A stretch of 64,000 nt of DNA. Source: Labyrinthula sp. Ha (Eukaryota > Sar > Bigyra > Labyrinthulida > Labyrinthulaceae). Made by a program: the position numbers and the translations under genes. Position 1 is the stretch's first letter, and the number at the start of each line of letters is the position of its first letter. Below the pieces are notes generated by a model. The model made no database searches. It was not told where the DNA came from and was given only the letters and a program-made list of their open reading frames with translations. The stretch is from the NCBI GenBank assembly GCA_015227615.1, contig JAALGZ010000014.1:1178001-1242000 (forward strand), written 5' to 3'. Positions 5,301 through 38,584 of this stretch are shown here, piece after piece.

Positions 5301-8300
5301 TGTGAAGTTTCAATTGTAGATTCGTACTTATATCGTTGGAATTTATGAACTCATCTATTCGCTCAATTTTCTCGCTAAACACTGCTGCAGACCCTTCGAG
5401 GTTCGCTACCAAGTTTGCAATGTTTCCAATAATGTTCGCATTAACGAGAACACCAAACAAAATTCCAATGAGAACGTAAAAGGTTCCTTGTATTGTAACA
5501 GGTGTAACATCTCCAATCACAACTACAACCAGGGTTGGAATTGCCCAGTTCAATGCCCTAAAGTATCTTTCAAAATCAGTACCAGAATCCACTGGAAGTA
5601 GCCCTGATTCTAGTTGTACCCCTATCCATGTATTGTTCCATGAACATAGGGCTTCTGGAGTTGCACCACACGTTAAATCTTCCAACAAAATACTTTCACT
5701 ACTACTATAATTATAATAAACTTCGGTGCCCGTTGAGCTGAGTAAATAAGAACCTGAGAAACTCTCGAGGTTTAACAGGGCATTACTGGGGCAAGAATTC
5801 TTATACGTAAGATCAACAACTAAATCAGGTCTGGAATAGTTGTTAAATTGACCCATACAATCTTCCACAGAGCTGAATAAACGCGAAACCAGGTAAAACC
5901 CACAGGCAGAGTAGTGAGAGACACAAAAGACTGAAACAGCCAACTTAAATAGCTTGTACGCTACTTCATTTACTACAAGGCCTCGACTGATCAACTGATC
6001 TACACTTTCCAAGTACTTCCCAATACGATGCATCAACAAAACTTTTGGAAGGCGACAAAAGGCGACATATTGAAAGTCGACCTCGCACGATAGCATAAAA
6101 CAGAAAAGTAAATAAATGAGTTCATAACTGGGTAGGATAAAAATATCCCAGTAGAGCTCACTTGAGTTTTTATATCGCTCAATTATACTGTTCTTGTTTG
6201 ATATGAGTTGACCTTCCCTGTAAAATGAAAAATATTGTCTTCGAAAAAAGCAATCTAGCAAAAGAAAAACATCCAAGATGAGATTAACTGCAACAACCAG
6301 AAGATCAAGGTGAAAAGAAGCGCTATAAGGGACTAGAATAAAGTTGTAAATGGCAGTAAAGAGAAGCCCTACAGCCCAAACTCGGTATTTCATGGAATTA
6401 GGGTGAGAAAATGACGCATAGTTTGCTTGAGAAGAAGAGAGATCATCAATTCTTGCTATTTGCGACAATTTAGGGTATTTCTTCAAATTTGAAGAGTTCC
6501 GCACGTTCATCAAGTTCTTCTTGTTCAACACCTGTTTGAGTCTTTTCTGAACAGCAAGCTTCTCAGCTGGGAATTTCTTACAAACTACTTCGAAATCTCT
6601 CTTGTTTATAACGAAACAATCACAATACACTATAGCTACTACATTTGCTGTTCGCTTTTCAGCTGCCAATAAGCAAGCTTCCCCAAAATAGTCACCTTTA
6701 GTAAGAACGGCATAAGTAAGCGTTAAATCGAAGGAGCAAATTCTTACTGCGCCCTTTTCGAGGAGGAACATATCTTCACCGAGCTAACACAATATAAGAA
6801 CAAAAATATTACCTCTCCAGCAACAATGAGAATGTCTCCAGGAACGTATACATTTGGTGAAAGAATAGCTAACAAGTTCTTGACAAACTCTGAACTCGAG
6901 ACTTGAAAAAACTCAATATCGCCTATTATTTTACCATTTACATATTCCTGTACTGCCATTCGCAGTGGCTTGGGCATGTCTTGCAAGATATTTGCCTCAT
7001 CAACACCTCGCTGCCTAGACCATAGGTACTCATAAAACTCAGAAATTTTGCTCTTTAATAGTAGGGGGAAATGAGAAAAGTCGAGATAATTGTAAATTTT
7101 CTGGGTTTTACTTGTAAAGGCTGATTTTGCAGAGTTTAAATTAGACAGTAAAGAAGCCATTGCACCAACGACGGCTGGATATAAGAACCCACCAACTAAC
7201 GTTGTCATTATAATAAACCAAGTTTCAGGTATATTTATAGGCACAATATCTCCATAGCCGACCTAAAATGAACATAGAAAGTGCAATTACTGTAGTCATG
7301 TCAACCAGAACGAAATAGAATGATCTGATATAAGTAACATAGGAGGTAGAGTGGCTGATCATGTCCCAACCCAAGTCATCAACTGATATCCAATCTGTTC
7401 TACACTCCAATGAAATACATGATGTTTCTCTCGTATAATAAGTATCCTTCGCTATATAAATCCAGAAACAACAAACCCAGTGAAGAAAACCAAAAAGACC
7501 AAAAAAGATCTTAATCAACCTGTGAATTGCATTAGACAGCGCAATTTTGCGTCGTTCAAAAATGTCTTTGATACAATTATAATAATGGGAGAATTTTATC
7601 ATCCTTAGGGACTTGAAAAGGCGAAGCCAGGGTAAGAACTTGAAGTATTCTGAGCCTAGCAAAGCGAAAAAATCTAGTGGCAAAACAATAACTAGATCAG
7701 TCAAACGAAAGTCATTTTCTATATAGTTTCTAAATATGAAAGAGCTATCAGCTATTAATACTCCTTCTCGATAGTAGGAAAAGTATCGAGAACGGAGAAT
7801 CACATCTACGAGAAAAGCCAGATCAAGGGCCCAATCAAGCCCATACATCAGGGTGAAAAGTAAGGGAAATTCTTCCTGCTCATAGAAAAAAGCAATTCGC
7901 AATGGGTTAATCATTGAGCTATGCCAGACACAAAGGAATTGAAAAGTGTTCCAAGAACTACGAAAGGTGGACGCTGGCTCGAATATTTTTTCCCATCCTG
8001 GTTCTAGAGGTTCATCGAGGTCTAACCCAAAGAATTTTTTTACCTTTGCAGTTCTTTTGGAGGCTTTTACAGCCTCATTTTCCAGATTTTTAATTTCCTC
8101 TTCTCGGAGGAATTTGGTTACCAACTCGCGAAAAGTTTCCTTCGGCAGATATAACCATTCGCAGTATGACCTTGCTCGGACTCCTTCGGGACAGGTTTCA
8201 GAGGAAAATAACGCATTCTCGCCCAACACAACATTACTAGAAGCTGAAAGAGCTTGCGTTATAGTTTTTCCATCTGCTTTTACTTTTTGCGCCTCTCCCC

Positions 8301-9555
8301 GGCTTAGGAAATATAATCCTTGAATTATTTGCTTCGGATAAATCAGGTACTCACCTGGTTGGATTATAATTTGTTCTAAGGAAAAACAAATTGCATTGAT
8401 AAGTGTATCTTTCATGCTCCTGAAAAATGAAATTTGCAGCACAAGATCTCTTGACCTAAGTCCTGCTAACTGAAGCTTTAATTGGCCTGGGAGTCCGCTC
8501 TGAAAACCTACTTCATCCACACCTTTCATACTCGACCACACATATAAATAATAAGCACGTATTCGCTTTCTTAACTTCCCTGAGAGTTTTCTATATTTCA
8601 TATACTTATCCAGTGTATCCATTTTTTGCTGAAACTCATACTCATTTGCATCTAAATTAGCAACCAAATTAGTGAGATTTCCAATGAACAGACAAGTTGA
8701 GATCATACCAAGGTACATCGTAATAATTGCAAATAAATTTTCCGAAATGACTGTTGCAGCTGGAACTATATCACCGAGTCCTACAGTTACCATGGTGATA
8801 GTTGCCCAATACAAACTTCTAACATAGGATGCTCTTGCCCCTATGATATTAACTAGAGTAGCATTTGTTACTGCATCTGAAGTAGAATATACCAAAGCAT
8901 CAGCAAGAACCCACGAATCCAAATTATTAGCAACGTTTGCATATCCAATCTGAAACCATACACAAGCTACCAAATGATTCAAAATTACAAAATAAAGTCC
9001 AAGAGAAAATAACCTATGAAACCCAGCATTAGTCACTATTCCATGAAAATCCAAGTAAAAAACCATTAAACTAAGATTCTCGGCTAACCTATGAGCTCTT
9101 AAGAATCTTAGGACTCTTAACCTTGAATCTCTGAAAACAAGTCCCCATGGTATAGAACCCATAAGATCAACACAAAAACCAAGAAATTTAGAGTATTTTT
9201 TTTGTCGCGAACCACCAAAGGAGTCTTCAATCGATCCATCATCCAGTGGTTGATACTCTTGTGCCTTGTTTCGTTTAGAGTGAATTATGGCGTCAGAACT
9301 AAGTTCTCGCAATTTAGATAGTGTTTTTGAAAAAAAAAGATATCGAAGTATTGAATCTAGTACGCTTAAACATGAAAAAACAACATCAAAAAGGATTTGA
9401 ACTTTTATTTCTTCGGTTCTTACAAACACATATTGATAAAGAATAAAAAATATGTTAGTGCACTGTATTCCAGTCTGTAATATCTCCCATATAAATCTTA
9501 ATGCAGATGAAGGGTTACGAAGGAATTCATTTATCCAGATTTCCAAAGAGAGCAT
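2320..9555 (-). CDS. Four-repeat cyclic-nucleotide-gated channel (CNGK-like), ~2374 aa, 5 exons
   Basis: Exons (minus): 9555-7291, 7262-6813, 6783-3923, 3894-3781, 3754-2320; coding length is a multiple of three. The protein holds four tandem units, each S1-S6, pore loop, C-linker and cyclic-nucleotide-binding domain, so one chain could form a whole pseudotetrameric channel. Filters: repeat 1 VGLGD (about residue 253), repeat 2 VGYGD (756-760), repeat 3 VVIGD (about 1327), repeat 4 VGYGD (about 2017). S4 arginines are clear in repeats 1, 2 and 4. The CNBD phosphate cassette is canonical only in repeat 2 (FGEACLL...RTA); repeat 4 has FGGETL, repeat 1 LGENALF, repeat 3 is divergent. This arrangement is known from sea urchin sperm CNGK, a K+-selective cGMP channel. 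Likely a plasma or ciliary membrane K+ channel. The ATG at 9555 is the first in frame; an upstream mini-exon cannot be excluded. Confidence 0.88.
3755..3780 (-). other. Intron 4 of channel gene (26 nt)
   Basis: Minus-strand sequence begins GTACGTG and ends CTTTTAG. Removing it joins ...YSLR to SLDALRLNKL, completing the S4 segment of repeat 4. It is the shortest intron seen in the window. Confidence 0.88.
3895..3922 (-). other. Intron 3 of channel gene (28 nt)
   Basis: Begins GTATAAG and ends TACTTAG on the minus strand. Removal joins GKLRTRKR to DIWLEYKKH in the S2-S3 loop of repeat 4 and restores the frame. Confidence 0.88.
6784..6812 (-). other. Intron 2 of channel gene (29 nt)
   Basis: Begins GTAATATT and ends TGTGTTAG. 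Removal joins GDILIVAGE to LGEDMFLLEKG, giving a continuous beta-roll of the repeat 2 cyclic-nucleotide-binding domain. Confidence 0.9.
7263..7290 (-). other. Intron 1 of channel gene (28 nt)
   Basis: Begins GTAATTGC and ends CATTTTAG. Removal joins VDMTT to VGYGDIVP, so the intron sits exactly inside the K+ selectivity filter coding sequence of repeat 2. Confidence 0.92.
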
Positions 9556-9999
9556 CAATCATCTCTAACGGTTCATTTCTTCATAAGATACTACGGTCAT
9601 AGAAAATATGTTTATAGTATTTGATATTTTGGGCAATCAACAGATAAACGAACATCAATAGATATTTTTAATTAATTTAAAACATCTCAACTAATTTCAA
9701 GAGTTGCATACAAATACTCTGGGGTTAAACTAAACGCAAAATGCATTACGTTCGAATACAACTCTAACTTTCTATTTAATCCTATGTTTAAGTGTTGTGC
9801 TTACAATACTTTTGTTAATATCATTTGTGTTGAGAAGTAATTTCGTGAGAACATCTAAGCTTCTTTTTTCTAGTATGACTCGATGTTAGGGATGGGCTTT
9901 GATAACTATTTTGATTCTATCTACCTATGAAATAATTGATATTTTGCTTTCTATCTAATTGTTCCGCTTATATTATGATTATCAATACAAGACTGAACC
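9556..9999. other. Intergenic, channel 5' side
   Basis: AT-rich stretch between the channel start and the copia target site. It should contain the channel promoter, but I see no distinctive element or ORF. Confidence 0.4.
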
Positions 10000-10219: not shown

Positions 10220-13200
10220 TTAGATTAAAGTATGTTTCCATTGAAATTTTGAAGTTGCAGCTTCCCAAAACTTATTAAATGTTTTAAATTCCAAAGGTTT
10301 AGTCAGAGCATCTGAAAAATTGAACTGTCTTGAGATGTAGGCAACAGTCAGGTTAGAATTTTTGAGATGAGATTTAATGAATGCTACCTGTACTGCTGCA
10401 AACTTGTACCTTAGTGTTAAAGGTCTTTGTAATGTCTTTACAGTTGATGCTGAATCAGTAAGAATGCCGAGCTTTGCGTTTGAATTTGTCATTTCAGTAA
10501 CTAAGCCTTGAATGTAAAGTAGATGTTTAGTTGCTCTGTAGACTTCGTAAAGCTCTGCATTAGGAGCAGAAGTAGCAATGATTGCCTGGTTTGAAGCATG
10601 TGCAGAAACTAAAGTGCTGTCAAGGTAGAGGTACCTACCTGAAGTTGATCTTCTAGAAATTGCGTTAGTTGCAAAAGAGGCGTCAACTACAGCAACAATT
10701 TGATGAAATTTAGTAATTGTTTCCATTCTGAAGGTTCTTTTGAAAGATTGATTCTGTTGTAAGTAGCCTAGTAGGCTTTGAAGTGCAATCCAGTGTTTAA
10801 CTGATGGTTCAGTAGATCCAGTTGCAATCTTACTTAGAGCTAACAAAATGTCCAACCTGGTGTGTCTCAAAAAGCCTAAGCTACCCAAACACTCTCGAAA
10901 AGGCACTTTGTCTTTAAGTTTTTCCACTGGTTGTGTGTCAAAATCAGATTGAATCGGAATGTTAGAGATTTTGATGAAAGTTTGAAATTTGTTTAAAGTC
11001 TTGCGCAAGTAGCTTTCTTGTTGAAGGTAGTAGTTTCCAAGCTCATCTCTCTCAATCACGCAACCAAGGAAGTCAACTGTTTGGTTAATTTCAGTAGTTT
11101 TTAACTTGAAATGTTTCTTGAGTGCTTGAGTGCAATGTTGAATTCTAGCGAGAGTACCCAGTAAAAGTAAATCGTCAACGTAAGAAAGAATGTAGATGTC
11201 TTTTCCAAAGAAAACACACTCATCGTACTGTGATTGGTTAAGTTTGAGTGATGTTTTCATGATGTTTGAAAAATGATTCCACCAAATTAGTGGTGCCTCA
11301 CGTAACCCGTAGAGGTTTCTTTTAATTAGTAAGACGTGATCTTTTCTAAGTGAGAAGTCAGGATGTCCTTCAGGAATTTCTGCAAAAAGTTTAACATCTT
11401 TTGGTAGAGGTGCGTAGAGAAAAGCAGCTTCTACATCTGCTGTTCTGAATGAAAATTGCTGTTGAGCAGCTAGAGTTAGAGCTGTTGCAAGGCTGTCTAG
11501 GTGTAGAGTAGGAGAAGAGTAGTCTGCTTGAAGTTTGTACTTTTGATGACGTCCGTTGAAGACAAGTCGAGCTTTTGCTAGACCATTTCTTTTTCTTGTC
11601 AAAACAAAAATCAATTTTCCAACCTCGTCCTTTGTGTTAATTTCTGAGCGCTTCACGATGCTAAGAACATTTCTAGCATGCATGTGCTGAAGCTCCTTCT
11701 GAATTGCCTTGTCGTACTCTTCTTTTTGCGGATGGTTGGTGAGGTCTTTGTACATTCTCGGGTGTTGCTTAAGTTTTGAGTCTAAAATCATTTCTTTTAG
11801 TTTTTCCTTTTGTCTGGGAGTTCGATTTTTAATCTTGTGTTTCGTTGACTCTGAAGTTTCGTAAACAAAGTAGTTTAAGGAATTTTCAAATCGTTTTGGA
11901 AGCTTAAGTGTTCTTCCTGTTCGAGAGTGTGATTGTTTGAAGATCGGGTGCTGTTGCGTACCTTCAGTGTCTAAGTTGCTAGATTCAACAGGTGCAGTTG
12001 GGGGTGTTTCTTCATCATCTTCTGGAGGATTGATTTCCTCTGGTGTAGTACTAGACTTGCTAGTTTCAAAGTTTAGAGAATGACTTGGTTCTGTGGTTGA
12101 ATCATCATCAGAGCCACTACTCTCTGTAGAGTCAGTTTCGTAAAGATTCATTGAATGTTTTGAAATTTTAATCAATGGTAACTTTTCTGCTCTTGAAATT
12201 GAATCATGAAATTTAGTTTCTACGAAATGAATGTCTTGTAATTGTGCATGTGAGATTCTTTTTGTTCTTTTGTTTAGTAAGGTACAAGTAAGGAAAGATC
12301 CAAGTGGATCGAAGCCAAGAAAAATCAATGGAATTGAAACATTATTGAACTTGTCTTTTCTTTGCTGAGAAGGAACAATTTTGTGTGCTAAACATCCAAG
12401 AACTTTTACATGTTGGAGCTTTGGCTTGTACCCATGAAAAACTTCAAAAGGGGTTAGTTTTTCCAAGGCGATGTGAGGTAATCTGTTTTTAATGAAGGAA
12501 GCGTAGTTGACAGCAAATTTCCACCAGTCAGTGGAGAGTTTTGCATGTTTAAGCGCAGATCTAGCAAGTGTTCTAAGTGAAAGAATTGAACGTTCTGCTA
12601 AACCATTTGTTTCTCCATGTCTTTCCGGAGTTGCAAGTTTAAAACGGATTTTGTTTTCATGAAGTGTGCTAAGGAATTCTGTAGTTAAAAATCCAGTTTG
12701 TCTGTCTAAAACAAGGAGATTGTAACTTGTTTTTGCCTGGCTAAGTAAATTGTAAAAGCTGTGTTTCAAGTCAGATGATTTGCTTGAGAGTGAAAACGAT
12801 GTCCAAATCCATCGAGTAAATTGATCAGCAACCACCAACATGCATCCTGTGTGGTGCCTGCTTGGTAGCAGCAGGTCCAAATGCCAAACCTGATTTTTCT
12901 TCCGTGCCTTAGTCTTAAGGAGCGAATCAGTTTTCAAAGGCATTCGTCTCATCTTGGTTAAGGCACATGTTTCACAGTCCGCGCTAGTAAATTTTTCATT
13001 TTCAAAAAGCCCAAGGTGAGAAAGTTTGTTTGTTGATGCATGCATGAACCTGTAGTGCCAGATCGAGTCTGTTGAATGATCCAGGGTTGTGTAGCAAGGA
13101 TCCGTGCTGTGTTCAATCCAAGCTTTACTGATCCCATTAATGTTCTGAAGCTTGCTGTGCTCTCCATTTGCAAACTTGATCGATCCATGTGAAGGATCGT

Positions 13201-14716
13201 AGTTGATGTTGCATCCCAACTGGTAGAGGAGCTTGTTTGAAAGTAAACATGTTTCTGCATCTTTGATGTAGTAAGCTGGAAGTGTTAGAGATCTTGTAGT
13301 GTCAGAAAATTTGATCTGAACTGTTCCAACACCAGTGATCATTACTTTGTTTTTCAAAAGTTGAATCGTGTTTTCGTTTTTGTAAAGGTTTAGATGAGTA
13401 AAGAAGCACGGGTCGTTAAAAACATTGCAACTAGAACCAGTGTCAATGACACACGAGACCAAATTCTGTCCTCCTGTTTGTGAGTTCTTGACATTTTCTT
13501 CAGCCAGGTAAGATTGGGAGGTAGATTTGTTTGTAAGGAAAATGACGAATGTTTCAGGAGCTACAAGTGGTTTGTCTTCTGTGATGTAAGTTGCTGCATT
13601 CGAGGACTGAGTTTGTTTGCCTGTGTTGTTGAATGTTTTCGGTGTTCTGTTTTTCCTGTTTTTAAGACTCTGTAGAAACCTTTTTTCACTGGCAAATCTG
13701 GTACACACGCTTTCCAAATGGTTTCTTCTTCCACATGAGCATGTGTTTCCTTTTGCTTTGCAGCTCCTGTAATGATTGTTGAATCCGCTGGAAAAGTTTT
13801 CACCGCACAAGACGCAGGTGTTTTGTGGAAGTCTAAAGTTGTTTGAGCTCTTCTGATTGTTAGTTTGGTAGTTTGTGAAGTTTACTGTAAGAGTTTCGTC
13901 ATGTGGTAAAATGCCTCTGGGATCGTGTGCGTAGACCTTAGAAGAGATTTGAGACTGAACGGTGTTAAGTTTTTCAGTGCTTGTTAAATCTAAATTTGTA
14001 AGTGTAGAAAGTAGAATGTTGTTGCTAGTTCGATTTTCCTTGATCTTTGAAACGTAAATCATTGCCCGGTCAAGCGTCTTCGTAAACATTCCATGTTGTG
14101 TACAGAAGGTTAGAGCTTTGTCGAATTTTTGATTGAAATCCATTAGACTTTCTTCGTTTTTCCATTTTAAGTTCATGAAAGTTGAAAAGATTGCAGAAAG
14201 TTGCGTGTCACGTGACAGGTAAAAGCTGTGACCTAGAGTTCGAATGATTTTGTTCAGTCTGTAAGGGTAGGTGAGACTTGTAAGGTAGTCAATTTGTTCG
14301 GGAAAGAATGTGATCAAATGATCAGAAATGAATTCGTCCGCATCTTCGGAAAGGACAAAGTAGTCTGTTTTCGTAGCATTTGAAAAGTCAGGAAGTTGCT
14401 CTGGGTTGATTGAGTCCACCAGTAAGTCCAAGTGTTTTCTTCCCTTTTCTCTGCAGACTTTGTTCAGTTGGACAGCTTCACCAGCTTTTTCTGTGTTTTC
14501 CACTACTGTTCCATCACTTGAGTAAGTAGACTCTACGCAGGTAAGATTCAGCTGCTTAATGTACAGCTCAATGAACCTCTTGAGTGTGATGAAGTTTTCT
14601 TGCGTTCTCAAATCCAAAACCTTATTTTTGAGTGCGTCAGAGAGAATTAACTTCGCAGCTTTCGTAGTTTGAGGGAGAATAGTATTGTCCTTAAATCTAA
14701 CAGTGTAGAGGACCAT
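10220..14716 (-). CDS. Ty1/copia gag-pol polyprotein, 1498 aa, intact
   Basis: Single polyprotein for retrotransposition. Order: gag about 1-290; cysteine/histidine knuckle region (CVLCGENF..., then CSCGRRNHLESVC, whose first Cys pair has one residue between rather than two); aspartic protease with DTGSS near residue 424; pre-integrase zinc motif (H...H...CETC); integrase core with the D, D, E set in WHLDLL, VLDRQTGF and GLAERS; reverse transcriptase with AFLYAPL and YVDD near 1178; RNase H with VVDASFA and LTDSAST. No frameshift separates gag and pol. The start used is the ATG at 14716, three bases beyond the primer-binding site; reading farther upstream would run into the 5' LTR and needs a non-ATG start. 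Confidence 0.92.
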   Translation of the reverse strand: MVLYTVRFKDNTILPQTTKAAKLILSDALKNKVLDLRTQENFITLKRFIELYIKQLNLTCVESTYSSDGTVVENTEKAGEAVQLNKVCREKGRKHLDLLVDSINPEQLPDFSNATKTDYFVLSEDADEFISDHLITFFPEQIDYLTSLTYPYRLNKIIRTLGHSFYLSRDTQLSAIFSTFMNLKWKNEESLMDFNQKFDKALTFCTQHGMFTKTLDRAMIYVSKIKENRTSNNILLSTLTNLDLTSTEKLNTVQSQISSKVYAHDPRGILPHDETLTVNFTNYQTNNQKSSNNFRLPQNTCVLCGENFSSGFNNHYRSCKAKGNTCSCGRRNHLESVCTRFASEKRFLQSLKNRKNRTPKTFNNTGKQTQSSNAATYITEDKPLVAPETFVIFLTNKSTSQSYLAEENVKNSQTGGQNLVSCVIDTGSSCNVFNDPCFFTHLNLYKNENTIQLLKNKVMITGVGTVQIKFSDTTRSLTLPAYYIKDAETCLLSNKLLYQLGCNINYDPSHGSIKFANGEHSKLQNINGISKAWIEHSTDPCYTTLDHSTDSIWHYRFMHASTNKLSHLGLFENEKFTSADCETCALTKMRRMPLKTDSLLKTKARKKNQVWHLDLLLPSRHHTGCMLVVADQFTRWIWTSFSLSSKSSDLKHSFYNLLSQAKTSYNLLVLDRQTGFLTTEFLSTLHENKIRFKLATPERHGETNGLAERSILSLRTLARSALKHAKLSTDWWKFAVNYASFIKNRLPHIALEKLTPFEVFHGYKPKLQHVKVLGCLAHKIVPSQQRKDKFNNVSIPLIFLGFDPLGSFLTCTLLNKRTKRISHAQLQDIHFVETKFHDSISRAEKLPLIKISKHSMNLYETDSTESSGSDDDSTTEPSHSLNFETSKSSTTPEEINPPEDDEETPPTAPVESSNLDTEGTQQHPIFKQSHSRTGRTLKLPKRFENSLNYFVYETSESTKHKIKNRTPRQKEKLKEMILDSKLKQHPRMYKDLTNHPQKEEYDKAIQKELQHMHARNVLSIVKRSEINTKDEVGKLIFVLTRKRNGLAKARLVFNGRHQKYKLQADYSSPTLHLDSLATALTLAAQQQFSFRTADVEAAFLYAPLPKDVKLFAEIPEGHPDFSLRKDHVLLIKRNLYGLREAPLIWWNHFSNIMKTSLKLNQSQYDECVFFGKDIYILSYVDDLLLLGTLARIQHCTQALKKHFKLKTTEINQTVDFLGCVIERDELGNYYLQQESYLRKTLNKFQTFIKISNIPIQSDFDTQPVEKLKDKVPFRECLGSLGFLRHTRLDILLALSKIATGSTEPSVKHWIALQSLLGYLQQNQSFKRTFRMETITKFHQIVAVVDASFATNAISRRSTSGRYLYLDSTLVSAHASNQAIIATSAPNAELYEVYRATKHLLYIQGLVTEMTNSNAKLGILTDSASTVKTLQRPLTLRYKFAAVQVAFIKSHLKNSNLTVAYISRQFNFSDALTKPLEFKTFNKFWEAATSKFQWKHTLI

Positions 14717-14719
14717 TTG

Positions 14720-14732
14720 CCAGTCGCAACCA
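14720..14732 (-). promoter_or_regulatory. Primer-binding site of element 1
   Basis: TGGTTGCGACTGG on the coding strand directly abuts the 5' LTR, begins with TGG (complement of a tRNA CCA end) and shares its first eight bases, TGGTTGCG, with element 2. The gag ATG begins three bases later. Confidence 0.7.
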
Positions 14733-14870
14733 AGTGAATATCTAGTATAAATGTGTAAAATGTAAGTATTTAAAAGTATTTCTTGTATTATGTATTGTGT
14801 CTTAGTAGTTAATTGATAATTACCCAAAATATATATTTAATTGTAACTTTTAAATCTGTAAATGCTAACT
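14733..14870 (-). repeat. 5' LTR of element 1 (138 bp)
   Basis: Coding-strand start AGTTAGCATTTACAG, end ATATTCACT. Short for a copia LTR. It should hold the promoter of the element. Confidence 0.9.
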
Positions 14871-25602: not shown

Positions 25603-27815
25603 ATGTACAACATTGGAAAGTTTAATGATATCACGTTTGACTTTGAGCAAGATCCTGAGTTTCAGAGACGAAGACGAGAAGAGCGTAAACAAGAAATTCA
25701 AAAGAATGACAGACGTTTCAAGACTATTGTTTGTCGGCACTGGGTCAAAGGTTTGTGTATGAAAATGGACAAATGTGAGTTCCTGCATGAAATTGATCTA
25801 GAAAGAATGCCGGAATGCCGTTGGGGAGAAAAATGTCAATCACCTGATTGCTTATACAAGCATACAAAGGAAGAAGATCGGTTAGAGTGCAGTTATTACA
25901 CACTTGGTTTTTGTGCTCATGGTTCAAGTTGTCGTTTCCGACATATAAGAAAAGAGAAAATAGAACTTCCTAAAGAAGCCAAATGGGACTTAGTATTCAG
26001 TCAAAACTATTCTATTGGAAACCAGCCGAAAAGTGAAGCAAAGGAAAACGTTTTTGGATTGACGGAGAAACAAAAGGAAAACTTCAAAGTTGCTCTATGT
26101 AAACATTTTGAAACTACAGGAAACTGCCCCTATGGAGAACGTTGTCATTTTGCTCATGGCGCAGCAGAACTTAGGGCACCAAACAGAAAAAGAAATCACG
26201 AGACTATGGAAGGCCCTTCTAGTGATTTTGTTCTTTTTTTTAACTTGTAGGCTCTGAACTCCTTCAAAAGCTTGTGCGCGAAATGCGAGAAGCAAATGAT
26301 GTTATACTCAACCCTTTTCAGGATCAAGGCAATGGTTTAAAAACACCAGATATTTTAGTACCAGGAGGAGAATACAAGTCAGTTAGATATGTTATTGTTC
26401 GGTCACAGTCTTTTCGTTCCTTAGCAGCTTCGTTTAAGCACTCAGTATGGGCAGTGAAGAAAACAACTGCAGAAGCTTTAAATGTTTTATTTAAAGAAAG
26501 AAGTAAAATATTATTATTTTTTGCAGTTGAAGAAACCAAACAATTCGGTGGTTGTGCAATTGTTAAATCTTTATTTAAAGTTTTGAAATCAGAAGTTGCA
26601 ACCAGTGAATCTGAGGAAATGTATATTGGAGACATATCTTGGCAGCACTTATGTTCTTTGTCGTTTACAAAGGTAGGCAAACTAAGTTGGTATTCTAATG
26701 ACTTAAAAACTGAGTTACCTGTTGGTTTGTGTGATGATGGTGCTTTATTGAAAGTTGATAAGGGAAGAGCACTTACAATTGCCTTATTTAGAGAGGATGC
26801 TGCAACAATAAATAAAAATACAATTGATCCTACACTAAAAATAAAATTATATGAACCACAGCAAGCACTTCAAGTGCACGAACTCGCAGCAAAACGACGT
26901 ACAGTTTTTCATTTTTATTACCTTTTAGATGAGTCTAGTGGACCAACCCAAATACAAGTTATAAAAATAAACAAACCTGGATATGTATTCATATGTCCAA
27001 CTGCGAATTATCTGGACGAAACACTTGGGAGATTACTTTTTGGAACCAATCCTAATGTGGTTCCTCCTACGTTGAGTATTCAAGAAGGAACCCCGTTATT
27101 CCTATTCTCAAAAGAGAACTTATTATTTTTTGGAGTTTTTGAAAGTTTAACTGCTTTGCAAATGAATATTGAACCAACTGCTTTTGATGGAACTCTTCCC
27201 TTACAAGTGAAAGTAAAAGTGCTGCATAAATATAACCCCTTGCATATATCTATTGTTACTCAATTAGGTAACGAAGTTATGAGATCTATTAATGAATATG
27301 AGATGATGCCAGTTGCTGAAATGAGACAACTTGTGCAATTGTTTGCTACCAATAATTCAACTAAACTTCCTGGACCAAGACAAGGTGCAGTATCTGAACC
27401 AAAGAATAATAGTGTTCGTAGACAACTTCCATTAAGGTTTATGCCACCTAAGCAAGGTGCTGCTGGAGAAATAATACAAGATATTCTCATTGAATTTGAG
27501 TTTCGTCCTAAGTTTAATCCTGTTGCTAGACTTGCAGGAAATGGAGGATATAAGCTAAGAAATATTACTCAAGCAACAAACGGTGAAGTACGAGTAGAAG
27601 CTCTAGGGCCTCCCATGAATCCACCACCAGTTGTAGTTACAGTTTTTGCTCGGAATGAGAGAGCACTTGAAAATGGAAAGGAGCTAATATTGACACGTAT
27701 TGATGAGCTACTTAGAAGTCACGAAGTGTATGTTCGAAGAGGAGAAGAGTTAAGGAGGCAGCGGTTGGAAAGAGAACGTGGTGTTCAGAGTTTTCAAGGA
27801 AACAGACAGTTTTAG
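25603..27815 (+). CDS. CPSF30 with YTH, DCD and KH-like domains, 727 aa, 2 exons
   Basis: Exons 25603-26221 and 26251-27815 (2184 nt). Exon 1 encodes four CCCH zinc fingers: CRHWVKGLC...[13 protein letters not shown]...[14 protein letters not shown]...CRFRH and [10 protein letters not shown]...CHFAH. The first three match the order in CPSF30/Yth1, the poly(A)-signal-binding subunit of the cleavage and polyadenylation factor. Exon 2 opens with a YTH domain (about 250-390; [34 protein letters not shown]). Trp273 and Trp337 occupy the m6A-cage positions, as in plant CPSF30-L. Next, about 449-574, is a DCD-like domain ([40 protein letters not shown]). The tail (about 617-699) is KH-like ([17 protein letters not shown]). 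Likely a nuclear m6A-reading 3'-end processing factor. The DCD addition is not an arrangement I know. Confidence 0.87.
26222..26250 (+). other. Intron of CPSF30-YTH gene (29 nt)
   Basis: Begins GTGATTTTG (the only GTG 5' splice site among the eight introns seen), has a run of eight T, and ends AACTTGTAG. Retention would end the protein shortly after the zinc fingers; removal joins them to YTH-DCD-KH. Confidence 0.87.
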
Positions 27816-29313: not shown

Positions 29314-30763
29314 AATGCCTTACCCATAAGGCCTTGACGACTTGGGGAATCCATGGGGCATTAGCTGTAGCACTAGCGCGCTGCGGCTTTGCTGTATCAT
29401 GGCCTAAGCTTTCTAAAAATCCATTTGGCATGACAGAATACGTGTATCTTCCCAGTGTGCAACTTTCCCGCAATTTTACATTCTTAGGGTGTGGTCTTTT
29501 GTAAGAATATATTAGTTTCCGAGATATGTGGTTCTGAAGGATTTTAACATAGCAAGTTTGGTACAGGTAATCAACAACCAACTCCTACAGGGCTTTGCAA
29601 TTACTCGTGTATTCACGTAAGTTTTTCTTTTTGCTTTATATGCTCTCCTCTTGGGTCTCTTTCCTAATACTTATGGAATATAAATAGAAAAGTTTTTCTC
29701 CATCGCGTAATGAAGTAGTTTCCAGCTGACATGAAGCTGATGCAGTCTAAGTGACTTATAATATTTAGTTTAGGATATTATTCATCAATTACTTAAAGCT
29801 ATTTCTCTTCTGGAAGTCATTCAACTTTAGTACAGGCATAGACAAAGGCGGGTGTTGTTTTCAATGTGTTTTAAAACAGTGTTTTCCTCCTTAGAGATAG
29901 CACTTACTTGAATTAAATCTTTTGGTGATTGGATGCTCCTTGACAAAAGGAATTCTCATTCTGCTTAGACTTTTATGCTATGTAAGTTTCTATGGTTTCT
30001 CTCGAATGAGCTTTGAGTGGTGTCTGCATTCAGCTTCACTTGTGGATAGTTCTGCTTCAATGATATGTTCTCATGATATATTTTTCCCTTGCTCTACACC
30101 AAATGTAAGAAAGTTGGTCTCTTTGATTTTTGTTGTTGTGTTGTTAATAATTAGTTAAATAAAGCAATTGAAATAGGAAATTCCCAAACATGAGTCAAAT
30201 AATACCTAATTTGCCTAATGAACTTACTGACGTGTTTGTGCTAAGGTTTACCTAACCACTGTGTATATTTATCAATTTTTAATTTGCAGAACAGTATCAA
30301 ACCGTATAGTAATATTAGTGAACAAATATATTTTTGGAAATTAAAGCATAACCAATCTTGTGATAGAATCTTAAGTAAAACAATAAAAAAAAGCAAAGCT
30401 AACAGCAAGCTAGCCAATAACAACAGTAAGACTGTCCAAAGTAAAGGAGAGCTTTTTTAGTTTTTTACATAGCTTCAATGGAGTAAGTTTTCTTCAGATC
30501 AACTTATACGTCTCTAAAGATAGCCTGATTTTAATCACTTCAAAACCTGACATTTTAGTTAATATCTTCATCTCCTTTTCAAGTATCTGAATATTTGATA
30601 ATTTATTTTTAGCAAATATATCATATTGGTATTTATAAAAAATATTACAATATACAATATTAAATTTATATAAATTGTTTTACCCAAAATGTGATTAAAT
30701 TTTTCATTTCAGTTAATTTGAAACTGCAGTTCAAAGTATAAAAAAAAGGTAAAACACTTAACA
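29314..30763. other. Non-coding, lipase 5' side
   Basis: No convincing ORF. TATAAAAAAAGG at 30738-30749 lies about 15-25 bp before the lipase ATG; it may be a TATA-like element or simply AT-rich leader. Confidence 0.35.
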
Positions 30764-33154
30764 ATGAATAAATTAAAGAAACTAGGAGCAAAACATGGAA
30801 AAAAGGTTACAAAAGGTGTTAAAATTGCATCAAATGCAGTAGCAGCACAAGGTAAAACAGCTATTGGAAGTGCCTCTGGGCAGCTTCAAGTACAAGCAAA
30901 GAATGCTGTTCACGCAGCAAGAAATGTTAAAGTTGAAAAATCAACAACTGCAAATAAACATTTGCAAGTTCAACAGGTAGAAATATATGAAATATTACCC
31001 AGACAAGTTACCTTATATTGGTCTCCTCTGACGAATGTATCTGAGGAAGTTGTGTACAGAGTCAGGTTTTATAAAAGGTACGACACGAAACAAGGCTGGA
31101 CTCAGTCAGAAGATTTGAGTACTAATGGCTATACAATAACGGATCTTACACCAAATACTTCATATAAAATATCTGTTCAAGCCAGAGAGAGTTCAAAAGA
31201 TAAATATGGTCCAGATAGTGCTACTATATTATCAATAAAAACTGGGACAGTACTAGCAGAAGAAATCAGTCTTAATCGTTCAAGAGCGGAAACGTTTCTT
31301 TCAGCATATGAAAAATTTGAAGCTTATCCTGAACCACAGGTTAAACCAGATACGTATTTCAATAAAGCTAGTCGTACTGTTGATGGTGCGTTATATCTTG
31401 CCTCATTTACTGGGGTTTTTGGAGATGTTGCAAGAGTATTGACCCAAGCAAAAAAACTATCTGAAGTTGGTGCTGCTGGTTTGTTTCTTAATAATGAGTT
31501 AGCAGGTATTATTTCAATAGTAGCAGCACAATTGAAAGATATCGCTTTATCTATTGGTATTCAACCAAAACACTTACTCGTTGGTATTTATTATCAAATG
31601 TGGCAGCAAAAGAAAGTTAGAATAACAAATCCAGCAATAGAGTATCAAAATCATACAATAAAAGGACAAGAGGTTAAAAATACAGTTATTTCGGAAAGAG
31701 TACCACATGGAGTTCTTACAATATTGGAGAAAGATTTAGTCTTAGCACGACTTGCATATAGAAATGATCCAGCAACTATCCAGTGGGTATTGAACAGACT
31801 TTCCATTCCTAATAAAGATCTAGAACTTATATGCTTTAGAGGCAATTCAGGTCAGAAGAAACCTGCTTTTTGTGTATTCGCCTCTAGAAGTTCCAGAGAT
31901 GTTTATTTTAGTATAAGAGGTACTAAAGAAGTTGGTGACTTGAATACTAATCATTCTTTTACTGTTCAGAATGTGCTTTTAAATATTGGAGGAAAAGTTC
32001 AAACAACTCAACTTCATCATGGTTTTTGTGAAGCTGCCAATTGGTTATTGTGTGGAGGAGGAGATACAAAACCAAAAGAAATTGACAGGTTTGAGCCCTT
32101 TTCCTTAACTAAAGATAACGTAAATACTCAACCAGGAGCTGGTTTGTATAGAATATTAAAAGAGTTTTCAAACAAAGGATATAAGATAAATATTAATGGT
32201 CATTCTCTTGGAGCTGGAGTATCTGTAGTGTTTTCCTTACTACTTTTGAGTATAGATCAGGATATTATGCTAAGAGTTACTGGCTTTGCTACACCTTGTT
32301 GTGTAAATGAATATATTACTGAACAACTTATTCATCAGTTTTGTAAAAACTATAAACTTCCTAGTAGGTTAAAAAAAGTTACCAAAGAAGAACAAAGCTT
32401 TTTTGGAAGAATAAACTTGTTGAATTTTGTTTATAGAGATGATGTTGTTCCTAGATTCAGTGTTCATTGTTTGAAAACATTTGCACTTTCAATTAAAGAA
32501 ACTGAACATATTTGGACAGCTTATTTAAAAGCTGATACTCAAGCAGCAAAAGAAAGAGTTTTTAAGCTATGGGTACCAAACCAAAGAGCACAAAACCAAA
32601 ATAAGAATGTAGTATCATTGCCAGAAAGCAAAGCAGAAGTAGTCGAAGCAGTTAATAACTTAAGAACTGAGCTGCAGAAGGACAAGCATAAACGCCAATA
32701 TATTCCTGGAGCTATTTGTCATGCCTTTCATCATAATGGGCAACAAAAAGCTGCTATAGTAAGTGGGGCTTTTGGAAGTTTAAGTACTATTATGGCCTTT
32801 GAAAATTTGAAAGATGATCATTTAGGGGAGTCAATTTCCCGTTCTTTAAGAGCTATTAAACTTGCCTCCAATGCAGTAAAGGTACCACAAGATTGGCAAC
32901 CTGCTGAGTTCTCTCAAGATGGACAAGTGAATACAAAATGTGGAGTATGTAGATACCCAGTTGGGTGGAATACCGCAGTTGCAGCTGGAAGTGAAACAGC
33001 AGAAGTTAAAGCTTCCGTGCATTGTAATGGTTGTGGGAAAGTTTGTTGCCCATCCTGCTGTTCGAAGAAAGAGCCAATATTGAAATATGGAATTGTTAAA
33101 CCCTCTCCCGTTTGTGATGTGTGCTATCTTTCTCTAGAAATAGACACCATTTAG
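30764..33154 (+). CDS. FN3 - class 3 lipase - FYVE-like zinc finger protein, 796 aa
   Basis: Residues 1-65 are basic, Ala/Lys-rich and probably amphipathic helix. About 69-158 is a fibronectin type III domain (VTLYWSPL...VYRVRFY...LTPNTSYKISVQA). About 280-570 is a lipase_3 alpha/beta-hydrolase: VYFSIRGT (oxyanion-side strand), nucleophile elbow GHSLG with Ser481, FATPCC, and YRDDVVPRFSVH for the Asp/His part of the triad. About 726-787 is a FYVE-type finger (CGVC...VHCNGCGKVCC...CDVC), four Cys pairs, but without the full basic RRHHCR patch that binds PI3P. Likely an intracellular, membrane-associated triglyceride or phospholipid hydrolase, perhaps endosomal. No signal peptide. AATAAA at 33231 may be the polyadenylation signal. 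A class 3 lipase with FYVE is known in protists; the FN3 addition is less familiar to me. Confidence 0.85.
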   Translation: MNKLKKLGAKHGKKVTKGVKIASNAVAAQGKTAIGSASGQLQVQAKNAVHAARNVKVEKSTTANKHLQVQQVEIYEILPRQVTLYWSPLTNVSEEVVYRVRFYKRYDTKQGWTQSEDLSTNGYTITDLTPNTSYKISVQARESSKDKYGPDSATILSIKTGTVLAEEISLNRSRAETFLSAYEKFEAYPEPQVKPDTYFNKASRTVDGALYLASFTGVFGDVARVLTQAKKLSEVGAAGLFLNNELAGIISIVAAQLKDIALSIGIQPKHLLVGIYYQMWQQKKVRITNPAIEYQNHTIKGQEVKNTVISERVPHGVLTILEKDLVLARLAYRNDPATIQWVLNRLSIPNKDLELICFRGNSGQKKPAFCVFASRSSRDVYFSIRGTKEVGDLNTNHSFTVQNVLLNIGGKVQTTQLHHGFCEAANWLLCGGGDTKPKEIDRFEPFSLTKDNVNTQPGAGLYRILKEFSNKGYKININGHSLGAGVSVVFSLLLLSIDQDIMLRVTGFATPCCVNEYITEQLIHQFCKNYKLPSRLKKVTKEEQSFFGRINLLNFVYRDDVVPRFSVHCLKTFALSIKETEHIWTAYLKADTQAAKERVFKLWVPNQRAQNQNKNVVSLPESKAEVVEAVNNLRTELQKDKHKRQYIPGAICHAFHHNGQQKAAIVSGAFGSLSTIMAFENLKDDHLGESISRSLRAIKLASNAVKVPQDWQPAEFSQDGQVNTKCGVCRYPVGWNTAVAAGSETAEVKASVHCNGCGKVCCPSCCSKKEPILKYGIVKPSPVCDVCYLSLEIDTI

Positions 33155-33833: not shown

Positions 33834-34133
33834 GAGTCAGACACTAAGCAGTCGAGTGTACGACTCTCTCCATACTGACTGTTTACACTTTACATAGTTA
33901 TAATACAATATTACATTACTGCACAATTGGTGCAACTTTACATAATACATTTTTACTAATACATAAGCACCGGAAACAACAGATCGTAAAACCTTAATAT
34001 CTCAACAACTACTGGGAGTTAGAAGACGTTACTTATATCATTTTAAAGCTGTTTTCAAGCTCTTTCAGTTAATTTAATTTAATATACTTATCCTCATACA
34101 CATACAGACGATACGGACAATTACTTGTCTAAC
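33834..34133 (+). repeat. 5' LTR of element 2 (300 bp)
   Basis: Starts GAGTCAGACACTAAG, ends ACTTGTCTAAC. No base differences from 38597-38896 were seen by eye. Lacks TG...CA ends. Confidence 0.92.
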
Positions 34134-34134
34134 T

Positions 34135-34142
34135 TGGTTGCG
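34135..34142 (+). promoter_or_regulatory. Primer-binding site of element 2
   Basis: TGGTTGCG lies one base after the 5' LTR and runs directly into the gag ATG at 34143. It matches element 1, so both probably use the same tRNA primer. Confidence 0.65.
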
Positions 34143-37100
34143 ATGGAAGTAAACGAAAATCAGAACGATCCCGTGGAAGAACGAACAGCACGGAGTGAAA
34201 ACTCCAATTTAACCCAAGGAGAAACTCATTTACAAAACTTTCCTGCTTCAACTAGAACACTTACAAAGCTAGAAATTACAAATGAAGCAATTAACGAAGA
34301 ATTCTACAAAAAAGGACGAAAAAGATTGGAAAACCTTTTACGATCAAAAACTGATCAAAATCAATTCGAACTTCTGAAACAAGGTGTTGAGATGTACCTG
34401 CTTGCCTTAAAATTGCAAATTAATGGAACATCTCTACGAAAATTCTTTAAATCTCATGACCGCAGCATCATTGATGAGCTGTTAGAATCTTACAATCCGC
34501 TTACTCAAAAATCTAACTACATTCTAGAGGAAGAAATTGATGATGAACTTTCAGATGACATCATTTCTCTTTGGAAAAAAGACGTTGTTTTCTTACGAAC
34601 AATCCGAACCCCACATCGTTTTTGCAAAATCCTGCGACGCATCGGGGCTGTTACATTCTTACCTACACAAACCAGAAAAAGAATTAACTTTGGAAACTTG
34701 ATTTACAGCTGTTGGGAGGAATCAGAACCCATTACAGACTTCGTTAAACGCTTTGATTCTTTGGTACAACAGGCTAATCAGATCAAGATGATGCAAAATG
34801 ACTCTGATTTACTTACACTTTTTCAAACTAAGATTCTCTTCAGAAGAAACAACAATCAGAAAATTTTTACAGTTGCCAACAATTTGGATTCAAAAGATCT
34901 ACCATTAAAGGATTACATGAGTGAAGTGACACAAGCCGTACTTCAGCATGACAATTCAGGTTTGATCCCTTTTGATGCTCCAAGTACATCAGTTGTTGCA
35001 TTTACAAAGAAAATTGTTTCTTCTAATTCAAAAGGTACATTGTGTTTCAATTGCGGTGAAGATTTTCCACACAAAGGCAAACAATGTGATGCTAAAGGTG
35101 CTACCTGTTCTTACTGTGGTAAACCTAATCATTTTGCAAAGGTGTGTTCAACCAACCCAGAACGTACATTACAACTTCCCAAGATGAAGAAAAACCCTAC
35201 AAAGAAAACAGTAGCAGTAACTTCTACAAAAGAAAATTTTAATCCTTTCAGTTTCGCTACTTCTCTTTGTACCACAGGTTCAAACTCTTTAGCTGGGCTA
35301 GATTCATGCAGCGATGTTTTCGTTTTCAGAAGCGCTGATTTTTTTACACACATGGATCAGAAGCCTGGTAAACTTACACTTACAGAAAATTCTTGTAGCT
35401 ACGAAAGCACTGGAACAGCCAGATTTGCATTCAAAGAATTTCCTTCTAAGTTTTTTACAGTACAGGCAATTTACATGCCAAGTGCAAATTTCAACATTTT
35501 GTGTACCTACGATCTAGAGCAACAGAATGTTAAAGTCAACCATCGCTCTAGAAATGTACAACTAGAAACAGGAAACAAATTAAAAATAATTTTACTTGGA
35601 AAGAAAAGCTTCATTGAAATCATTCCACTAGGGAAATCAGTCTTACAAACCTCTGATCCAAATCTAATGCATCGTAGATTGATGCACCTCTCAGAGGACA
35701 AACTTAAACATGCTGGTTTCATTAAGGGTTCTCAAAAACTGAACAGCTGCCAAGTCTGTCTTCAGACAAAAGCTAAACACAACCCAGTGAAGAATTTAAT
35801 TCACAAGATGAAACTCTCTCCTGATTCCAAAGGTCAAGCTTTTTCAATGGACTTACTCATTCCGCCAAAACACTCGATGAAACCAGTCAATGGTGTTGTG
35901 GCTGCATTGATTTTAGTTGACCTGAGAACAAAATTAATTAGAGTTGCTCCTTTAAGAACACTTCAATCGAAAGATTTACTTGCAGCTCTTTACTACCTTC
36001 TTTCTACACTCAAAACTTTACCAAAAACGATTGTTACAGACCGCCAATCTGGTTTTACGGCAGAACACTTTGTCAACTCAATTTCCGCAAAAGGCATTCA
36101 TTTACGTTTTGTCCCTAGAGATCGACATGACACTTTCAATGGAGTTGCTGAACGAACGATTGGCATCTTAAAGGTCATGGCTTCAGCCGTCCTACTACAG
36201 TCTAAACTTGATGACTCCTTTTGGATCTACGCGGTCAAATTTGCAAGTTACATCAAGAACAGAGTGCATCACAAAACACTTGGTGAATCACCTTACAAAC
36301 TAGAAACTGGGCAAGAACCAAACCTTTCTTCACTTAGAACCCTTGGTTGCTGTTGTTTTACGTTAAAACCTTCTGGAACGAAGACAAACAAATTTCAAGA
36401 AAGAACAGACACTGGTCTCTTTCTTGGACTACAGGAACATTCAAGTTTCAACACAGCAATCATCTACAAACTTAGTACTGGAAAAATCATTTACCCTCAA
36501 CTAACCGATGTTTGGTTCCAGGAATCAAGAACACATGATCAAATCGATCAAAATCCACCAACTTTCTCATTTGGTGACATCAAAATTGTTGACAAAACTG
36601 AAAATGACCCAATTTCTGAGGACGATTTTGAATCTGATGATGACGATGATTTCAGTCCAGATTTTGGTATACACTATGTACGTTATGGCCAGAAGTCAAA
36701 TCAACAAGAAAATCATGATTTTGAGCATGATGATAATTTCGATGAAAATCCCCCTTCAGCAGATGTTCAACTCGATCAGGATCAAGATGCACATGATCCA
36801 ACCCCATCTGCCGAAGTAACAAACCCTGAAACACCTCAAACGAGCGAAAACAGCAATGCTCGTCTACCAGTCACAACGCGATCTGGGAGAAATGCAACGA
36901 AATTCGACCTAAATCGGATGTCAGCTTTCACGTTGAACACAACTGAAGAAACAACACACATCATCAAGCCTAAAACAAAAGGTCAGAAAGAAAAGCTACG
37001 GAAGAAGATCATTCAGTCTAGAATTGATCAGAAACCTTCCATTTACCGTGACACAAGAGGTCACCCAGACGAAGCATCTTACAAGAAAGCGGTCGAAAAA

Positions 37101-38584
37101 GAGCTCAAAGCTTTGGAAGAACGAAAGGTTCTCAAAGTGATTAATCGCTCTGAACTTCCTGAAAATGCTTACGTTGGAAAATGCACGATGCTTGTGAAAC
37201 AAAAACGCAATGGTAGTTTCAAAGCAAGATGTGTTTACAATGGAAGATCTCAGAAATTCAAAATTACACCTTACCGCAGTTCTCCTACCTTAGACTACAA
37301 CAGTCTTGCAGTTGCACTAGCAGTTGCAGCTCGAAGACAGTTCCATTTTAACACTTTAGATGTTAGTACCGCATTCTTGTACGCGGATCTACCTGCTGGC
37401 ACTACACTCTACTGTGAAATCCCTGATGGACATGAACTGAAACATGACAAGACTAAAGTAATGAAGATTGAGAAAGCACTTTACGGTCTGAAGGAAAGTC
37501 CCAAGCTTTGGTTTGACAATGTTTCTGCTACAATTCAAAACTTGGACTCAAACAAGCAATCTTTGACGAGTGTGTCTTCTACAAGAAAGATTTAATTACT
37601 TTACTTTACGTAGATGATGTACTGATGCTCGGTACAAAACAAGAAATTACAAACTTCTCAAAACAGTTTGGGAAAACTTACAAAATTACACTAGGAACAC
37701 TAGATCAGAAAACAGACTTCTTAGGAGTTAACATTGAAAGAAAACCCAATGGAGACTACCAAATTGACCAGATCAAACACATTGAGAAAATTTTAGAAAA
37801 CTTCAAGGATTTCAAGACTAAAGACAAATTTACACCATTACCTTCTACTTTCGCTGAGGCTGTTAAGAACAATTCCAATGCTAAAAGCATTAAATTTCCC
37901 TACAGAGAATTGCTTGGATCTTTAATTTACTTACGACTTACAAGATTTGATTTACTCTACGCGTTACATGCGCTTAGTCAACTTTCTGAACACGTGACAA
38001 GTTTTGCAGTAAAATCAATTCTCAACACATTAGGCTACATTAGTAGAACGAAACATCAAAAACGAATTTTTTACTCAGATCAATCAAAAGGTGAAATTAC
38101 ACTTCTTGCCTTTTGTGATGCTGAATGGGCCTCTAACACACTTAACAGAAAAAGTGTTAGTGGTAACTTCATTTACTTTGGTCAATCGCTCATTACTGGC
38201 AGAAGTTCAAGACAAAAGACAGTTGCTACCTCTGCTGCCGGAGCTGAGCTGATTGAAATTTACAACGCAGCGAAACATTTGCAAGGAATCTACGGATTGT
38301 GCATGGATTTAGATTGCAAAGTCAAGCTACCTTCAGTGATTTTTACAGATTCACTTAGTTCAACTAAAACCTTAGAAAAGACAGTTTCTCCAGAGCAAAA
38401 ACACATGAGTGTTGCAATTCATTTCTTAAAAGGACTCATTCGTTCAGGAAAACTAAAGGTGATTTTCATCAAACGCGAATTCAACATTGCTGATCTTCAA
38501 ACGAAACAGAATCCAAGAGCTGAGTTTGAAAAACTTTGGAACATGACTCATTCAAGGATGAAGTGGCAGCATTTGAAGATCTAA
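34143..38584 (+). pseudogene. Ty1/copia gag-pol, frameshifted in RT
   Basis: The first frame (ATG 34143 to 37595, 1150 aa) covers gag, two zinc knuckles (CFNCGEDF..., CSYCGKPNHFAKVC, the second a perfect CX2CX4HX4C), protease, integrase (FSMDLLIPP, VTDRQSGF, GVAERTIG) and the first part of RT (VSTAFLYADL). At about 37561 one base appears missing relative to element 1, so the frame changes just before the YVDD catalytic box. The other frame then runs through RNase H to 38584 (ATG at 37625). The protease site reads LDSCSD where element 1 has IDTGSS, so the catalytic D-T/S-G is also damaged. No recoding heptamer is evident at the break, so I call it inactivated rather than programmed. Confidence 0.85.

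Follow-up and report, generated by a model that had tools for sequence, protein, structure and literature searches.

The CPSF30 orthologue of Labyrinthula sp. Ha, its YTH-DCD-KH extension and its altered m6A pocket

CPSF30 belongs to the core cleavage and polyadenylation complex, in which its CCCH fingers recognize the poly(A) signal and hold FIP1, and its versions with a YTH domain are usually held to be m6A readers. Two of these are natural points of comparison for the protein of Labyrinthula sp. Ha considered here, namely Arabidopsis CPSF30-L, which likewise has CCCH fingers followed by a YTH domain, and Toxoplasma CPSF4, which is also a CCCH-YTH CPSF30 of a protist of the SAR group. Presumably, neither of them has a DCD or a KH domain. 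Conversely, the plant DCD/NRP proteins have the PF10539 DCD domain in common with the Labyrinthula protein and, we assume, lack the CPSF30 fingers and the YTH domain. With respect to the m6A pocket, the relevant portion of PMC6545605 gives the cage of plant CPSF30-L as W258, W309 and Y318, of which the Labyrinthula protein keeps the counterpart of W258 only. In Toxoplasma CPSF4, of which residues 519-526 correspond to YTHDC1 428-439 in the pertinent part of PMC8313237, the second cage tryptophan and the N and R positions of the pocket are present, whereas they are altered in Labyrinthula.

The closest described architecture is that of the heterokont CPSF30 orthologues of Bell, Wolf and Koonin (2020; PMC7641849), which are reported there as Znf-YTH-DCD-KH proteins, for example in Saprolegnia diclina, and share both domain order and group (the stramenopiles) with the Labyrinthula protein. 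The same authors also report haptophytes with DCD beyond the stramenopiles and predict that the DCD domain is a binder of modified bases, with m5C as the proposed ligand. The parts of PMC7641849 on these orthologues treat the YTH domain as m6A-binding and make no mention of a 'cage'; in contrast, the Labyrinthula protein combines four CCCH fingers with an altered pocket.

Gene structure and domain architecture

The window, i.e., the whole stretch of 64,000 nucleotides of Labyrinthula DNA that was analysed, codes for the protein on its forward strand, with the following features:

25603..27815, + strand: CPSF30-YTH-DCD-KH gene, ATG to stop, three exons; 717 aa once two introns are removed, translation identical to EukProt P0002
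25732..25788, + strand: CCCH finger 1, C44-C52-C58-H62; the 25 rows of alignment A1 agree at all four ligands
25816..25863, + strand: CCCH finger 2, C72-C78-C83-H87; ligands likewise unchanged throughout A1
25888..25944, + strand: CCCH finger 3, C96-C104-C110-H114; ligands likewise unchanged throughout A1
26098..26157, + strand: CCCH finger 4, after a linker, CX8CX5CX3H, C166-C175-C181-H185; all four ligands again unchanged throughout A1
26222..26250, + strand: intron 1, 29 nt, GT...AG
26373..26789, + strand: YTH domain, residues 248-386; Pfam E 2e-18
26899..26928, + strand: intron 2, 30 nt, in frame, GT...AG
26967..27347, + strand: DCD domain, residues about 436-562; PF10539 E 3.3e-14
27465..27731, + strand: type I KH domain at about residues 602-690, with its GNGG loop at 626-629; below the Pfam cut-off in this protein

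Both spliceosomal introns are very short (29 and 30 nt), and their removal yields a 717-aa protein that matches, letter for letter, the separately made MAKER model P0002 in EukProt. That model (AED 0.01, three exons) removes the intron at 26222-26250, and we take its quality string to mean transcript support at all splice sites. Thus, the view of the preliminary description that 25603-27815 is one gene with the above domain order was right, as was its first intron; it overlooked the second intron, and hence gave a form of 727 aa instead of 717 aa. The two long open reading frames overlap each other and are in different frames, as might be seen if a false intron had been used to join two adjacent genes. 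However, the independently made P0002 has the identical join, and of the other 38 matches, 34 carry the same domain order on one polypeptide, so that this artefact is in practice refuted.

The tandem CCCH fingers are of the CPSF30 type by both Pfam (E 3.7e-14 in the spliced 727-aa protein) and alignment. Presumably, finger 1 corresponds to ZF2 of human CPSF30, and finger 4 has no counterpart in the short CPSF30 of plants. The gene is the sole CPSF30-like gene found in the genome (50.8 Mb, 153 contigs), where the search returned four matches in total, with 486.3 bits for the gene itself and 37.8 bits for the next-best match, which extends over one finger (residues 156-196). The single YTH match and the single DCD match in these 50.8 Mb both fall in this gene. 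The same kind of search finds CPSF_A-family matches at three places, indicating that related core genes are detectable by it. By sequence, its host is a labyrinthulomycete-like stramenopile, with this protein as its one CPSF30 (CPSF4) orthologue.

In the YTH region, the Pfam match at residues 252-382 reaches 66.9 bits against a cut-off of 22.1. The YTH fold is confirmed, with the m6A-binding AtCPSF30 (5zuu) as the closest solved relative among the matches listed; in the structure searches the top 50 of 906 and the top 50 of 862 matches are all YTH entries, so that these listings speak to the fold of YTH and not to that of KH or to an EVE/PUA-like fold of DCD. The suspected DCD domain is borne out by a significant PF10539 match at 450-571 of the 727-aa form (53.2 bits versus a cut-off of 27.8), equivalent to residues 440-561 of the 717-aa protein. 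The KH domain, also suspected at the outset, fares differently at two levels. In the single protein the matches lie below the curated Pfam cut-offs, both at 626-687 (E 0.011, 16 bits versus 30) and, for a second KH-like match, at 632-687 of the 727-aa form (E 0.053, 13.7 bits versus 21.5). At the level of the family, it is recovered by PF22675 in 20/25 aligned members and by KH_1 in 10/25 (E 0.001), and the predicted region has a strand-helix-helix-strand-strand-helix order with GNGG at 626-629 as its GXXG motif. The model of the whole protein has a pTM of 0.41 and does not give the mutual arrangement of the domains.

Distribution, conservation and affinities

Precomputed Pfam assignments place CCCH, YTH and DCD domains together in 35 of 39 matches, including the Labyrinthula gene model itself. 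The named carriers are oomycetes and labyrinthulomycetes, among them Phytophthora, Pythium, Aphanomyces, Plasmopara and Hondaea. By profile, at least 34 proteins were recovered, 29 of them with YTH and DCD and mostly the same as the 39, while residues 205-727 as a single-sequence query matched nothing but the model of this same gene among 7992 candidates scored. Plant and alveolate CPSF30-YTH proteins were not among the matches listed, in which two plant CCCH proteins without YTH appeared; hence, these searches are uninformative as to the reach of the DCD fusion beyond the stramenopiles. A search for the same order elsewhere, as had been suggested, therefore succeeds, and a fusion unique to this species is rejected by both the 35/39 matches and the heterokont cases of PMC7641849. 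The latter, published in 2020, also run counter to two earlier statements, that no CPSF30 with DCD had been described and that DCD is plant-specific. Accordingly, the CPSF30-YTH-DCD-KH architecture is not new. In our reading, YTH-DCD-KH is an old stramenopile extension.

Alignment A1 comprises 25 of the 39 proteins, and in its rows YTH is matched in 25/25, DCD in 23/25 and KH in 20/25. The tree and the pocket alignment were made from 37 of the 39 proteins, leaving out P0039 and P0040, which are without YTH; P0041 and P0042, which came from the profile search, enter none of these sets. The proteins P0012 and P0023, which have no DCD match, end early and are probably truncated models. In the tree, the Labyrinthula protein groups with that of Aplanochytrium sp. 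PBS07, its nearest named relative, and two other proteins with support of 100/95; this group adjoins thraustochytrid-type sequences such as that of Hondaea, with the oomycetes apart. The protein is a long branch (1.57) of unusual composition, and its position in the tree is accordingly not firm. An algal or plant affinity is not favoured, the closest named relative being Aplanochytrium sp. PBS07.

Compared with its three nearest relatives, the protein is 81% identical over fingers 1-3, as against 32% in YTH, 33% in DCD and 25% in KH. Together with the long branch, these values could be taken to mean that the three C-terminal domains are relics of little function in a plain CPSF30 that acts via its fingers. 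However, the domain order is held across oomycete- and labyrinthulomycete-type sequences at the above frequencies, and the gene model is full-length and has reported transcript support, as we read its quality string. We consider such decay quite improbable, and the lower conservation of YTH, DCD and KH would also fit changing targets.

The m6A pocket and the search for writers

The 37 rows of the pocket alignment, one of which is the Labyrinthula protein, were compared with YTHDC1, YTHDF2, AtCPSF30 and Toxoplasma CPSF4 as references. The first cage tryptophan is present as W273 in Labyrinthula and is kept in 34/37 rows, with F in the other three. The second, which precedes the core tryptophan by 13 to 19 residues (-13 to -19) in 4/4 references, has no counterpart: none of the 37 rows, Labyrinthula included, has a tryptophan from -9 to -21. 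In eight of the 37 no aromatic residue at all is found from -21 to -9, and Labyrinthula is one of these, its loop being free of aromatics between -21 and -7. At the second-cage position, the alignment reads V or I for this protein and for the three relatives nearest to it. The other tryptophans of its YTH domain, W337 (the core tryptophan) and W353, align to no cage position, so that of the two cage tryptophans previously believed to be visible only the first is there. The third cage position is occupied by E, with Y330 two residues further on. F or Y is found two residues from the third position in all 13 members of the clade, and this aromatic may partly replace the third cage residue. By alignment, then, just the first of the three AtCPSF30 residues, W258, W309 and Y318, is represented.

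A comparable picture emerges at positions K361, N/D367 and R475 (YTHDC1 numbering), which we take to have roles in RNA contact, and at which Labyrinthula has R, S and D, respectively. Position 361 is K in 4/4 references and in 0/37 rows, and 475 is R in 4/4 references and again in 0/37 rows. Position 367 is N or D in 4/4 references and in 22/37 rows, all of the oomycete type, and in 0/13 of the clade of Labyrinthula. In the 22 oomycete-type rows, N367 and the third-position W are both retained, and in 17 of them an F or Y lies between -13 and -19; the thraustochytrid type includes seven rows in which the residue at -18 is F or Y. Owing to these aromatics near the second cage position, a modified cage may work in such thraustochytrid- and oomycete-type proteins. 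The cage loop of Labyrinthula (321-326) is modelled with a pLDDT below 50, and the pocket argument hence stays a sequence argument.

Writers of m6A were sought in a six-frame reading of the genome that ignored introns, with the best 150 of 351 candidates scored for METTL3 and the best 150 of 194 for METTL14. The 150 matches scored with the human METTL3 core are MT-A70 matches, the best of which, on C91, has 44% identity and 130.5 bits. In a back-comparison with solved structures this gene is of the AMT1 type, scoring 249.6 bits to ciliate MTA1 versus 126.8 to METTL3. The second-best match, C2, is a retroelement copy with 133.6 bits to ciliate MTA1 versus 103 to METTL3. The back-comparison covers these two, the other 148 matches scoring lower; the METTL3 search also returned a 40%-identical piece at C82:36258-36578. 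Among the 150 scored METTL14 candidates, the best reaches 56.6 bits and lies on the same C91 gene. For WTAP, one match of 24.7 bits (cut-off 35) was obtained, and as a haloarchaeal control also matched, it was not counted as present. Nothing was found in the genome for VIRMA or PCIF1, both weak negatives given that neither matched in any control genome. YTH, DCD, MT-A70 and CPSF_A are likewise without matches in the controls, which thus carry little information for eukaryotic families. In sum, no orthologue of METTL3, METTL14, WTAP, VIRMA or PCIF1 was found in the genome, the last two with weak negatives. The pertinent part of PMC11449341 reports that oomycetes lack METTL3 and METTL14 and yet have m6A, which is attributed there to enzymes resembling METTL4 and METTL16.

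In light of the changed pocket and of the METTL3/METTL14 pathway not found in the genome, we favour the view that the YTH fold has been kept while its m6A pocket has eroded, and that the protein of this species has probably lost canonical m6A reading or retains it only weakly (a probability of roughly 0.6). In the main rival view, a working reader akin to plant CPSF30-L or Toxoplasma CPSF4 would instead use a remodelled cage of W273 and Y330, completed by some other residue at the second position, to couple m6A to poly(A) site choice. The YTH fold with the m6A binder AtCPSF30 as closest solved relative, the retained first cage tryptophan, the aromatic at -6 in 13/13 of the clade and the reported occurrence of m6A in an oomycete that lacks METTL3/METTL14 (PMC11449341) are consistent with this. 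However, the loop without an aromatic from -21 to -7, the loss of N/D at 367 and R at 475, and the five writer orthologues not found (for VIRMA and PCIF1 with controls that had no matches either) argue against it, and we regard it as unlikely. Of the polyadenylation and m6A hub postulated in the preliminary description, the polyadenylation factor stands and the m6A hub is unsupported, because the pocket is changed and a canonical mRNA m6A writer was not found in the genome.

Predicted function and genomic surroundings

As in the rest of the family, the fingers would be part of the cleavage and polyadenylation core, where they are expected to bind the poly(A) signal and FIP1. The C-terminal half with YTH, DCD and KH would tether the complex to further features of the pre-mRNA near the poly(A) site. 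If canonical m6A reading is indeed weak or lost, such recognition would rest on KH for sequence, on DCD for a possibly modified base and on a repurposed YTH surface. We infer every binding activity of the protein from its domains, including the additional RNA contacts ascribed to DCD and KH; the modified-base role of DCD is the one predicted in PMC7641849. More speculatively, after METTL3/METTL14 had been lost in stramenopile lineages, the YTH domain of their sole CPSF30 might have been freed from m6A reading and its pocket rebuilt, with the adjacent DCD domain taking over the reading of a modified base for the polyadenylation machinery, a scenario that we hold to be doubtful. If true, a universal 3'-end factor would have swapped one RNA mark for another.

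The main interest of the protein lies in this mismatch, in that CPSF30-YTH is usually held to be an m6A reader and yet 37/37 stramenopile-type rows are changed at several positions that in known readers contact m6A or the RNA backbone. METTL3 and METTL14 were not found in this genome and, in the relevant part of PMC11449341, oomycetes are reported without them. This raises the question of the role of CPSF30-YTH without m6A and of the ligand of the DCD domain, which is testable in culturable protists.

Turning to the surroundings of the gene, it is flanked in the window by Copia-type retroelements at 10220-14836 (- strand) and 34083-38584 (+ strand). Both have RVT_2 and an integrase profile below the cut-off, and the latter is split over two overlapping frames. 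At 2320-9558 (- strand) lie three adjacent frames with Ion_trans and cNMP_binding, the domains of cyclic-nucleotide-gated ion channels, and at 30722-33154 (+ strand) a class 3 lipase is fused to fn3 and an FYVE-like finger (below the cut-off). From 39608 to 63993, at the window end, extends a satellite array with a 355-bp unit, in rows of 64.1 and 4.5 copies with a 93% match.

Elsewhere in the genome, a search for MT-A70 gave 354 candidates, of which 150 were scored; each of these exceeds the cut-off, and many lie in frames of 1000-2660 aa. Two such frames that were read whole, L026 1480-8316 (- strand) and L027 1013-6406 (+ strand), are LTR-type retroelement frames ending in an MT-A70 adenine methyltransferase, with RVT_1 and RNase H over the cut-off and integrase and chromo profiles below it. 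A keyword search of the literature for an MT-A70 methyltransferase in a Gypsy retrotransposon returned no related paper. Compared with solved structures, the retroelement MT-A70 copy is nearest to ciliate MTA1/AMT1. The AMT1-type gene on C91 is a stand-alone gene (L010 1027-2010; C91:220758-221276), and its likeness to the ciliate enzyme suggests genomic 6mA in this protist.
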